DNA of 64,000 bases. Origin: Paracrocinitomix mangrovi (GTDB lineage: Bacteria > Bacteroidota > Bacteroidia > Flavobacteriales_D > Crocinitomicaceae). The DNA is taken from the NCBI RefSeq assembly GCF_019740355.2, contig NZ_CP091819.1, positions 3,286,001 to 3,350,000 on the forward strand. Direction: 5' to 3'. Every line of letters begins with the position of its first letter. Position 1 is the first letter of the stretch. Positions 18,599-50,940 of the stretch are shown in pieces. Under the pieces are notes generated by a model. The model saw only the letters and a list, made by a program, of their open reading frames with translations, had not been told where the DNA came from and did no database searches. Position numbers and translations under genes: made by a program.

Positions 18599-18625
18599 TA
18601 CCACCCTTAATTGCAAAAAAGTCAA

Positions 18626-19795
18626 ATGTCAGATATCCGATACAATAAAAGAGGAGTTTCAGCTTCAAAAGAAGATGTCCATAACGCAATCAAGAATATA
18701 GACAAAGGTCTTTTCCCACAAGCGTTTTGTAAAATCGTTCCAGATTATTTAACAGGTTCAGATGATCACTGTATTGTAATGCATGCAGATGGAGCAGGTA
18801 CAAAAAGTTCACTGGCATACATGTATTGGAAAGAAACTGGAGATTTATCTGTTTGGAAAGGTATCGCACAAGATGCATTGATAATGAACATTGATGATCT
18901 ACTTTGTGTTGGTGCAACAGATAATATCCTTTTATCCTCTACCATAGGAAGAAATAAAGGGTTGATTCCGGGTGAAGTGTTGTCTGCCATTATTAACGGA
19001 ACAGAGGAGCTTTTACAAGATTTAAGGAATCATGGAGTAGATATCCGATCAACAGGTGGCGAAACAGCAGATGTTGGGGATTTAGTGAGAACCATTATTG
19101 TTGATTCTACAGTGGTGGCAAGAATGAAGCGAAAGGATGTAATTACAAATAAAAATATTAAAGCCGGGGATGTAATTGTTGGATTAGCTTCATATGGACA
19201 AGCTACATATGAAAAGGAATACAATGGCGGAATGGGTAGTAATGGTCTGACATCTGCACGACATGATGTTTTTGAAAAATACCTTGCCACTAAATATCCT
19301 GAAAGTTTTGACCCATCAGTACCTGAAGAATTAGTTTACTCAGGGGGTATGAAGCTAACGGATAAAGTAGAAGGTAGTCCAATTGATGCCGGAAAATTGG
19401 TTTTATCTCCTACAAGAACTTACGCGCCTATTATTAAAAAAATATTGGATTTGAATAGATCAGATATTCATGGAATGGTGCATTGTAGTGGAGGAGCACA
19501 GACAAAAGTCTTACATTTTGTTGAAGATCTTCACATTATTAAGGACAATATGTTTGAAGTGCCACCTTTGTTTAAATTAATAAGTGAGCAATCAGGTACT
19601 TCATGGAAAGAAATGTATAAAGTCTTCAATATGGGACATAGAATGGAAATCTATTTACCGGAAGATAAAGCACAAGTAATTATAGAAATTTCAAATTCTT
19701 TTGGTGTGGATGCACAGATTGTTGGAAGATGTGAAGCTGCTGACGAAAAGAAATTGACAATAAGTTCCGAATTCGGAAAATTTGAATACCAATAA
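18626..19795 (+). CDS. purM: Phosphoribosylformylglycinamidine cyclo-ligase (AIR synthetase)
   Basis: A 389-residue ATP-dependent cytoplasmic enzyme of purine synthesis that closes FGAM to aminoimidazole ribonucleotide. It begins with RYNKRGVSASKEDVHNAI and contains HADGAGTKSSLAYMYW, the phosphate/ATP-binding region of the PurM fold. MNIDDLLCVGATDN and STGGETADVGD follow, then a second half with HGMVHCSGGAQTKVLHF. The ATG at 18626 is preferred over TTG 18611 because the residues before it do not match the family and a promoter box lies just upstream. In Bacteroidota purM is commonly followed by prfA and pyrF; here a small extra gene separates purM from them. Confidence 0.93.
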   Translation: MSDIRYNKRGVSASKEDVHNAIKNIDKGLFPQAFCKIVPDYLTGSDDHCIVMHADGAGTKSSLAYMYWKETGDLSVWKGIAQDALIMNIDDLLCVGATDNILLSSTIGRNKGLIPGEVLSAIINGTEELLQDLRNHGVDIRSTGGETADVGDLVRTIIVDSTVVARMKRKDVITNKNIKAGDVIVGLASYGQATYEKEYNGGMGSNGLTSARHDVFEKYLATKYPESFDPSVPEELVYSGGMKLTDKVEGSPIDAGKLVLSPTRTYAPIIKKILDLNRSDIHGMVHCSGGAQTKVLHFVEDLHIIKDNMFEVPPLFKLISEQSGTSWKEMYKVFNMGHRMEIYLPEDKAQVIIEISNSFGVDAQIVGRCEAADEKKLTISSEFGKFEYQ

Positions 19796-19833
19796 GACAA
19801 TTAACAATTAATAATGAACAATTGTCAATTTGA
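19796..19833 (+). repeat. AT-rich ACAATT repeat at the left edge of the four-helix gene
   Basis: Right after the purM stop, ACAATT occurs at 19797, 19804 and 19818, the last within palindromic ACAATTGT, followed by GTCAATTTG. The block is an imperfect inverted copy of the repeat block after the four-helix gene. Confidence 0.6.
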
Positions 19834-20190
19834 ATGGCACAACAAAACGAAAATATAATCCTGAAAAAATCTTATGATTTTGCATTAAAGGTTGTTGTAC
19901 TGTGTAGAAAAATTCAAATTGAAGAGAAGGAATTCCAATTATCAAAACAATTGTATAGATCAGGAACGTCTATAGGAGCAAATGCAGAAGAGGCCATAGG
20001 AGGTGTTTCAAAAAAGGATTTTGCTAATAAATTAGGCATTTCTTATAAGGAAGCAAGAGAATCAAAGTATTGGTTGAGATTGATGCGAGACTCAGAGCTA
20101 GTGGATGAAGAATTGACAAATGAATTGATAGCAGATGTAGATGAACTTGCAAGAATTTTGTTTTCAATAATCAGATCATCTAAAAATTGA
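19834..20190 (+). CDS. Four-helix bundle protein (23S rRNA intervening-sequence protein family)
   Basis: A 118-residue predicted cytoplasmic, all-helical protein of the S23/IVP-like four-helix bundle family (TIGR02436 type). Family hallmarks are KSYDFALKVVVLCRKI at the start, QLYRSGTSIGANAEEAIGG in helix 2 and SYKEARESKYWLRLM in helix 3. Relatives are encoded in intervening sequences of 23S rRNA genes, and the fold is shared with Avd of diversity-generating retroelements; no biochemical activity is firmly known for free-standing copies. No reverse transcriptase or variable repeat is nearby. It interrupts the usual purM-prfA-pyrF order and has AT-rich repeats on both sides, which suggests recent insertion. 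Confidence 0.88.
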   Translation: MAQQNENIILKKSYDFALKVVVLCRKIQIEEKEFQLSKQLYRSGTSIGANAEEAIGGVSKKDFANKLGISYKEARESKYWLRLMRDSELVDEELTNELIADVDELARILFSIIRSSKN

Positions 20191-20233
20191 TAATTGCACA
20201 TTGATAATTGCACATTGATAATTGTAAATTGAC
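20186..20233 (+). repeat. 14-bp tandem repeat (about 3.5 copies) after the four-helix gene
   Basis: ATTGATAATTGCAC occurs at 20186-20199 and 20200-20213, a variant with TAA at its end at 20214-20227, and a partial copy from 20228. The first copy overlaps the stop codon of the four-helix gene. Its reverse complement resembles the block before the gene. Confidence 0.8.
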
Positions 20234-20261
20234 AGTAAATATTTTAGATTGAAATTAAATC

Positions 20262-21347
20262 ATGAGCGATATTTTACCAAAGTTAGAAGCGATCAAAATT
20301 CGTTTTGATGAAGTAGGTCAAAAGATAGTTGACCCTGAAATCATTGCGGATATGAGTCGTTATGTAAAACTGAATAAAGAATATAAGGATCTTGAGGTTA
20401 TTGTCAACGCTTATATTAAGTATAAGAACGTTATTGACAATATCGAATCGTCAAAGGAAATGTTGGCCGAAACTAAGGATCCTGAAATGAAAGAAATGGC
20501 TCAAATGGAATTAGATGAATTGATTCCTGAAAAAGAGCGATTGGATGAAGAAATTAAAATCTTATTGATCCCTAAAGACCCTGAAGATGATAAAAACGCC
20601 ATACTTGAAATTCGTGCAGGTACTGGTGGAGATGAAGCATCCATTTTTGCTGGAGATTTGTATAGAATGTATACTCGTTTCTTCGATACAATGGGATGGA
20701 AAACGGAGGTAATGGATGTTACTGATGGTACCCAAGGCGGATACAAAGAGGTTATTTTAAAAGTGAATGGTGAGGAAGTATATGGCACTTTAAAATTTGA
20801 AGCTGGTGTGCACCGAGTTCAAAGGGTTCCGGATACAGAAACACAAGGTAGAGTTCATACATCTGCAGCTACAGTTGCTGTTCTTCCTGAAGTGGAAGAA
20901 GTTGATGTTCAAATCAATCCTGCTGATATTGAGTTGCAAACTTCTCGTTCAGGAGGTGCTGGAGGACAAAATGTAAACAAGGTTGAAACGAAAGTTCAGT
21001 TGACACATAAACCTTCCGGTATTGTGGTTGTTTGTCAGGTAGAGAGATCTCAGCTAGCTAACCGTGAACGTGCAATGGAAATGTTGCGTTCAAAGTTGTA
21101 TGATATCGAACTGGCAAAAAAACAAGGGGATGTTGCTGCTAAAAGAAAATCAATGGTATCAACAGGAGATAGATCTGCTAAAATTAGAACTTATAACTAT
21201 CCTCAAGGAAGAATTACAGATCACAGAATTAATAAAACCATGTACAACCTTTCTAATTTCATGAATGGGGATATTCAAGAAATGATTGACGCATTGAAGA
21301 TGGCAGAGAATGCCGAAAAAATGAAAGAAGGAGAAGCAGCACAATGA
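20262..21347 (+). CDS. prfA: Peptide chain release factor 1
   Basis: A 361-residue class I release factor that reads UAA and UAG in the ribosomal A site and triggers peptidyl-tRNA hydrolysis. The GGQ loop is [17 protein letters not shown] (about residues 229-245), the methylatable glutamine included. The codon-reading PxT element is PDT in [15 protein letters not shown], which marks RF1 and not RF2 (SPF). The C-terminal [20 protein letters not shown] is also typical. The stop overlaps the pyrF start by four bases (ATGA), so the two genes are coupled. A 71-base spacer with tandem repeats separates it from the four-helix gene. Confidence 0.96.
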
Positions 21348-50839: not shown

Positions 50840-50849
50840 TTATTAATAG

Positions 50850-50930
50850 AAAAAAGAACATAGAACAAGGAAAAAAGACAAAGACTTATTCACTTTAAGT
50901 CTTTGCTCTTTGCTCTTTGCTCTTTAATCT
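50850..50930. repeat. Inverted repeat with 7-bp tandem units in the rpoB-rpoC spacer
   Basis: CAAAGACTTA (50879-50888) and TAAGTCTTTG (50896-50905) form a perfect 10-bp stem. The right arm continues as CTTTGCT three times (50901, 50908, 50915), and the left arm carries imperfect complements (AGAACATAGAACAAGG). There is no T run of terminator type right after the stem. Confidence 0.7.
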
Positions 50931-50940
50931 GAATAAAAGC

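Follow-up and report, generated by a model that had tools for sequence, protein, structure and literature searches.

A small IVP gene between inverted heptamer arrays at the purM-prfA junction of Paracrocinitomix mangrovi, a probable copy of a mobile DNA element

A stretch of 64,000 nucleotides from the Paracrocinitomix mangrovi genome (contig NZ_CP091819.1, positions 3,286,001 to 3,350,000; hereafter the window) was analyzed for a small gene of the IVP/S23 family which lies, together with short tandem repeats, between the host genes purM and prfA. All the features of this locus are on the plus strand. The upstream gene purM occupies positions 18611 to 19795 according to the list of open reading frames (ORFs) and to tblastn comparison with relatives, its true start being maybe a few codons further downstream. 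Immediately after its stop codon comes a left array with about five ACAATTA-like units of 7 nt (19796 to 19832; period 7 in Tandem Repeats Finder, 19796 to 19831 in the periodicity scan). The listed ORF that follows (19834 to 20190) codes for a protein of 118 residues, and its last codons are overlapped by the right array, which comprises about seven units of 7 nt (ATTGATA/ATTGCAC; approximately 20183 to 20236; Tandem Repeats Finder periods 7 and 14) and is inverted with respect to the left one. The downstream gene prfA extends from 20262 to 21347 (ORF list and comparison of 29 prfA loci). The protein matches the profiles PF05635 (E = 4.5e-25, 88.4 bits for a cut-off of 33.8) and TIGR02436 (E = 4e-30, 104.3 bits for a cut-off of 24), in both cases above the curated cut-off, and is a member of the four-helix-bundle IVP/S23 family, as proposed by an earlier sequence-only reading of this DNA. 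We read the locus as one copy of a mobile DNA element of about 0.4 kb, consisting of an IVP gene between short-repeat arrays that are mostly inverted, and give this reading a probability of about 0.7.

When 160 nt of each flank were compared, the left one matched the right one in inverted orientation at p = 0.003 (999 dinucleotide shuffles), versus p = 0.61 in direct orientation, and the claim that the left block is an inverted copy of the right one is thereby upheld. The RNA duplex calculated for the two arms has an energy of -26.0 kcal/mol versus -9.4 ± 2.9 for shuffled arms, none of 200 shuffles being that low. The IVP gene is the sole listed ORF of at least 60 residues in the purM-prfA insert and therefore no transposase is encoded there, in agreement with the same reading. 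The search of the window protein against PADLOC matched 0 families and that against PHROGs gave nothing convincing (best E 0.052). The PF05635-family profile matches the solved chains 2gsc (Xcc0516 of Xanthomonas campestris) and 2rld, the latter homologous to the window protein, and five chains are present in each of these two entries. The window genome holds eight members of the family, seven of which are flanked by arrays by eye.

The generality of this arrangement was analyzed in 181 IVP loci, 102 of them from the window's own family (out of 110 matches, kept when they had full 160-nt flanks, were near-complete and were not near-identical) and 79 from named genomes of many phyla (80 of 91 matches were usable and one duplicate was dropped). 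Since only the approximately 30 best-scoring matches of each genome search became loci, weak family members are under-sampled. The phyla are given as labelled; draft bins may be mixed, and a contig labelled Limnohabitans resembles Flavobacterium. At p ≤ 1/61, 116 of the 181 loci had two arms that matched each other in inverted orientation, and 34 had arms that matched in direct orientation. Arrays of the period 7-9 type were detected in 133/181 left and 138/181 right flanks, versus 23/362 shuffled flanks. In the named-genome set, 54 of 79 IVP genes showed the inverted match, versus 7 of the 376 other genes in these loci (odds ratio 114), and in the same-family set 51 of 102 own flanks exceeded the 95th percentile of mismatched pairs, versus none of 99 flanks taken 540-700 nt away. 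The repeat unit is mostly of 7-9 nt and the array is about 40 nt long (median 43-44 nt by an edge-extending measure). In two loci (L312 and L323) the arrays have their best lag at 6, corresponding to a unit of 6 nt, and the range of 7-9 nt is thus not a strict one.

Further samples gave similar results. In nine further genomes, labelled as other phyla and one archaeon except for one probable Flavobacterium, 29 of 30 loci were retained and 25 of these passed the inverted test with mononucleotide shuffles, 7 of the 29 places being already among the 181. An IVP gene was present in 54 of 274 gammaproteobacterial genomes, where 24 of the 29 best new loci passed (mononucleotide shuffles). Among the cyanobacterial plasmid copies (12 of 18 records read), 10 of 12 were inverted at p ≤ 0.011, one had direct arrays and one had none. 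The inverted-array architecture is thus family-wide, and the other copies that the sequence-only reading had proposed to look for do carry flanks of the same kind.

Insertion of such elements was observed in plasmids of Nostocales, in which plasmid searches revealed filled and empty versions of five junctions. The flanks of the filled and empty partners are mostly 88-99% identical, a few distant ones going down to 67%. Two plasmids of the strain Nostoc sp. ATCC 53789 share an operon in which an element occupies different junctions, so that each supplies the other's empty site. The traM junction occurs in filled (L269, L278), empty (L279, L282) and ORF-less (L280) states. In Calothrix, the element gives an integrase a new stop and altered last residues. 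In Aulosira, the 3' end of a gene is interrupted by the element; the protein is 12 residues shorter than that of Tolypothrix (77 versus 89), and the severed codons (QTELDDF and the stop) persist beyond the right array. This surviving severed end indicates that the filled state is the derived one at the Aulosira site, which points to an insertion and not to a loss. Moreover, plasmid-borne elements of Aulosira, Nostoc and Trichormus (L273, L276 and L357) have 416-419 nt in common at 78-82% identity, and this likeness begins with the left array and ends with the right array in three unlike gene surroundings. Among the 181 loci, 7 pairs combine a protein identity of at least 70% with the lack of any common neighbour; they come from two clusters, and all 7 have alike arrays, versus 0.5-0.8% of the pairs below 50% protein identity. 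Taken together, the common unit and these pairs indicate that arrays and gene move together, and the Nostocales copies enter new sites as one unit whose ends are defined, which supports the earlier proposal that gene and flanks move as one element.

These data bear on the possibility that the gene alone moves and that the arrays are made in place after its arrival, by slippage and template switching between the arms, maybe promoted by the IVP protein. Such a process would agree with the presence, at the same junction in different genomes, of elements with unlike repeats, and with the co-variation of the two arms from element to element at a given junction. At fadB-fadA (p = 1.6e-7) and at sdhA-sdhB (p = 1.3e-4), two arms match better when they belong to one element than when they are taken from elements at that junction elsewhere; at the sufC junction they do not (p = 0.43). 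However, both arrays belong to the unit found in three surroundings and form its two ends, and the seven close pairs share their arrays away from any common neighbour, which makes formation in place very improbable. For the repeat common to the two arms, re-insertion of kin elements or copying from arm to arm would each provide an explanation. Of the pairs of copies within one genome, only 1 of the 92 drawn from 29 genomes and 1 of the 35 drawn from the nine further genomes had alike arrays (score of at least 24). The repeat is therefore rarely common to the copies of one genome and is common to close kin elements elsewhere.

The purM-prfA junction was compared in 29 prfA loci, including the window locus. 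In 22 of them, among which the congener locus L053 and the locus of the genome with the closest prfA (L052), purM directly precedes prfA, no more than about 75 nt away. The statement that this run is commonly uninterrupted is thus confirmed for purM-prfA, and these closed junctions, with the five from Nostocales, supply the empty sites that the sequence-only reading had suggested seeking. Three loci (L054, L055 and L056) have about 750-890 nt between purM and prfA, in which by eye another, different small gene lies, suggesting that the junction receives other insertions too. This intervening gene is TerB-like by eye. One locus (L068) carries an ORF-less inverted array pair between purM and prfA (p = 0.014), two lack an adjacent purM, and the remaining one is the filled window locus. 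A congener element (L014), with 61.6% protein identity to the window IVP, has arrays like those of the window element (score 40) and different neighbours. The empty sites of the window copy are from fairly distant relatives only, no near-identical filled and empty pair being found, and the window copy itself would have arrived by a movement like that seen in Nostocales.

The elements mostly share the direction of the genes around them. In the same-family set, 90 of 102 copies are co-directional with both neighbours; in the named set, the ratio is 59/70, versus 226/397 for other triples of genes in these loci (Fisher p = 8e-6). On its outer side, the left arm starts close to the stop codon of the upstream gene (median -5 nt in 127 loci), and about 10 nt separate the end of the right arm from the following start codon (122 loci). 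Certain junctions are recurrent, with 29 copies at fadB-fadA, 19 at sdhA-sdhB and 10 at the sufC junction (gene names read from the neighbours). On a FastTree protein tree, built on few columns and with many unresolved forks, the number of changes was 3 for sdhA-sdhB, 8 for fadB-fadA and 6 for another junction with 7 copies, from which both long residence and repeated arrival at recurrent junctions are likely. The IVP protein is strongly constrained, with a median dN/dS of 0.107 over the 47 usable of 84 pairs, which are not independent.

The purifying selection and the sense orientation, like the long residence at sufC, sdhA-sdhB and other junctions, could also be expected from a resident operon regulator, in which the IVP protein would bind the arrays as cis sites in the mRNA and tune the neighbouring genes, mobility being rare or past. 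The better match of same-element arms at fadB-fadA and sdhA-sdhB would fit this explanation, no better match being seen at sufC. Nevertheless, the elements occur in operons that have nothing in common (purM, sdh, suf, fad, cas and plasmid transfer genes), many relatives are empty, IVP-less arrays are common in the genome sample described below and the arms show no wobble bias, so we consider a regulatory role as the main function of the arrangement quite improbable.

Arrays also occur apart from IVP genes. A 464-kb sample of the window genome, window included, contains 8 intergenic arrays at five places, only one of which has an IVP gene, and a pattern search with the window repeat revealed IVP-less arrays at four further places of the same genome. 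Within the window, the rpoB-rpoC junction (50840 to 50940, plus strand) is filled by an ORF-less inverted array pair (inverted p = 0.002), a probable non-coding derivative of the element; the ORF-less states at traM and at purM-prfA are its counterparts. Of the 76 stray arrays located within 6 kb of an IVP gene, 23 find their best match, among the IVP arms of 80 loci, in those of their own locus. Neighbouring stray arrays, where listed as pairs, are mostly not inverted. In Nostoc sp. C057, the traM junction (L281) holds by eye an ORF-less inverted pair with an AATTCAA-like heptamer; the junction is the same as that of the GGGAAC elements and the heptamer is different. In one congener (G002), three stretches (L263, L264 and L265) have near-perfect ACCAATC arrays of roughly 10 to 18 units, accompanied in two of them by composite arrays of other heptamers, with no IVP match in those stretches.

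The dominance of IVP-less places, 4 to 1 in the 464-kb sample, recalls the REPs (repetitive extragenic palindromic sequences) mobilized by RAYTs (REP-associated tyrosine transposases), and the IVP element could accordingly be a passenger of a Y1, RAYT-type transposase acting in trans. Three of four congeners indeed have Y1_Tnp matches. On the other hand, the congener with five IVP matches, whose genome is 93% complete, has no Y1_Tnp match, and no heptad array was found around the five congener Y1_Tnp matches (four loci, one at a contig end). A resident Y1 transposase was rejected as the partner on these two grounds, and the passenger explanation appears most improbable.

A further explanation places the element at the RNA level: as in 23S rRNA intervening sequences (IVSs), it would be inserted into transcripts, its stem cut by RNase III and the RNA reverse-transcribed back. 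The sense orientation beside co-directional genes is compatible with this, as is the occurrence of the same protein family in 23S IVSs; according to PMC4990558, the Coxiella IVS has complementary ends, is a substrate of RNase III in vitro and carries tandem heptamers before its S23 ORF. Furthermore, one of the 29 best gammaproteobacterial loci (L355) is in a 23S gene, a share which may be low-biased as these are best-scoring loci and as draft genomes often have fragmented rRNA contigs, so that rRNA-borne copies may be under-represented. In that sample, then, the name of the family describes the exception. The 23S-borne copy itself has stops in its IVP frame and arms that are not significant. 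No excess of G.U was found among the sense-strand mismatches of the arms (218 G.U versus 237 A.C) and the duplex energies of the sense and antisense strands did not differ (p = 0.26); selection on an RNA stem was consequently dropped as unsupported. RVT_1 was matched in none of the four congeners in one Pfam search, which could miss an unlike reverse transcriptase, and in 3 of 14 control genomes in the same search; a resident reverse transcriptase was set aside as partner. We regard an RNA-level element as unlikely.

The lack of an RNA-strand sign and of RVT_1 in these searches, together with Y1 matches devoid of arrays, favours recognition of the DNA ends by the IVP protein with the help of host enzymes. 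In the mechanism that we propose, an IVP oligomer would recognise its own repeat at both DNA ends and bring the ends of the element together. The length of the arrays, about 40 nt, and the five chains of 2gsc and 2rld invite the guess that one IVP protomer may perhaps bind each repeat. Host replication or repair enzymes would then cut and join the DNA. Afterwards the arrays would lengthen, shorten and diverge by slippage, and copies without the ORF would persist as solo or paired arrays. Lacking its own promoter, the element would be read through, which would explain why it is tolerated in sense orientation at stop-to-start junctions.

Several results weigh against the mobile DNA element. The strict inverted test was failed by 65 of the 181 loci and passed at 0.05 by only 3 of the 8 window-genome copies (L003, L004 and L005), while L001 and L007 of that genome have arms significant in direct orientation instead and L270 likewise has direct arrays. 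The best right arm for a left arm was its own in only 21 of 102 cases (median rank 5.5), because kin elements share repeats. At 60-70% protein identity, only 15% of the pairs without a shared neighbour have alike arrays, and since array similarity falls so fast with protein identity, the specificity of protein for repeat is unproven. Three of the 12 cyanobacterial copies (L266, L267 and L271) are antisense to their neighbours. At the sufC junction (10 rows) and at another site (5 rows), the copies form one branch each, indicating long residence. No strand-transfer enzyme, excision product or transposition event was observed, and to these points is added the limit noted above for RVT_1. Target duplications, which the sequence-only reading had thought worth aligning for, gave a divided answer: one of 5-6 bp (TTCTA) is possible at one site and none is evident at the other four. 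That reading had also taken constant presence at one place in all relatives as a sign against mobility; the window junction, empty in 22 of 29 loci, speaks for mobility, whereas some other copies are kept at one junction across genera, which would on this view count against it.

The element was compared with known systems. With the 23S rRNA IVS it shares the protein family and an ORF between complementary ends; it differs in that the window copy, between purM and prfA, and 28 of the 29 gammaproteobacterial loci have no rRNA gene around them, and in that its ends are repeat arrays whose arms bear no RNA-strand signature. As expected of an insertion sequence or DNA transposon, the Nostocales copies insert as a unit with defined ends, but no transposase or recombinase is encoded. 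RAYT/REP systems and miniature inverted-repeat transposable elements (MITEs) likewise combine a small protein gene with dispersed non-coding derivatives that share its ends. In contrast to these, the IVP unit has no Y1 transposase, its ends are heptad arrays and neither REP hairpins nor terminal inverted repeats common to one transposase, and a repeat is rarely common to several IVP copies of a genome. A resemblance of PF05635 to Avd of diversity-generating retroelements is described in PMC10053308. These differ from the IVP element, RVT_1 being absent from the congeners searched, and the family profile matches 2gsc and 2rld and no Avd entry.

Intergenic 7-nt tandem arrays like the IVP arms are known as cyanobacterial short tandemly repeated repetitive sequences (STRRs), as the GGGAATC-type repeats of Xanthomonas and Nostoc and as TAACTGA in Beggiatoaceae. 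Cyanobacterial IVP genes are flanked in intergenic DNA by tandem heptamer arrays of STRR type, which are probably the published STRRs. For two Xanthomonas, 70 and 75 inverted repeat pairs are reported in PMC4692102; in the text consulted of PMC4679880 and PMC4692102, the term S23 does not appear and the arrays are treated alone. The Nostoc 7120 repeats of PMC4692102 are rarely paired and are absent from its plasmids, which argues against a link of such repeats to the IVP element. IVP is stated to be CRISPR-associated, with genes in cas loci, in PMC3936711. In the open-access literature, as far as its accessible text extends, arrays flanking IVP genes outside rRNA were not found described; heptamers before the S23 ORF, heptamer arrays and IVP genes in cas loci are each known and stand unconnected in these sources. 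The element lacks the defining features of IVS, transposon, RAYT and retroelement and behaves as a mobile unit nonetheless, although the term of an IVS located outside rRNA may be preferred by some. More tentatively, at odds somewhat short of even, it may represent a new class of mobile elements in which a 13-kDa four-helix-bundle protein is the sole encoded mobility factor and acts on its own heptad-array ends; the long-puzzling 7-nt arrays known from Cyanobacteria, Xanthomonas, Beggiatoaceae and Bacteroidota would then be solo ends or ORF-less derivatives, and the 23S IVSs its rRNA niche.

If the element is mobile as proposed, a common and misleadingly named family would become the gene of a widespread bacterial and archaeal mobile element without a recognisable moving enzyme, and heptamer arrays, noticed for decades without an origin, would gain a testable source which may explain puzzling repeats in many genomes. 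A new mechanistic question would also be raised, that of two ends with the same repeat, which rarely recurs in the other copies of the genome. IVP elements lie between cas6 and cas4 at two loci (L268 and L270), and such placements may explain the earlier statements of CRISPR association. As minor observations, two phage records hold weak IVP relatives, and six gammaproteobacterial copies (L344, L347 and L349-L352) are situated directly beside a tRNA gene, apparently at one recurrent junction.
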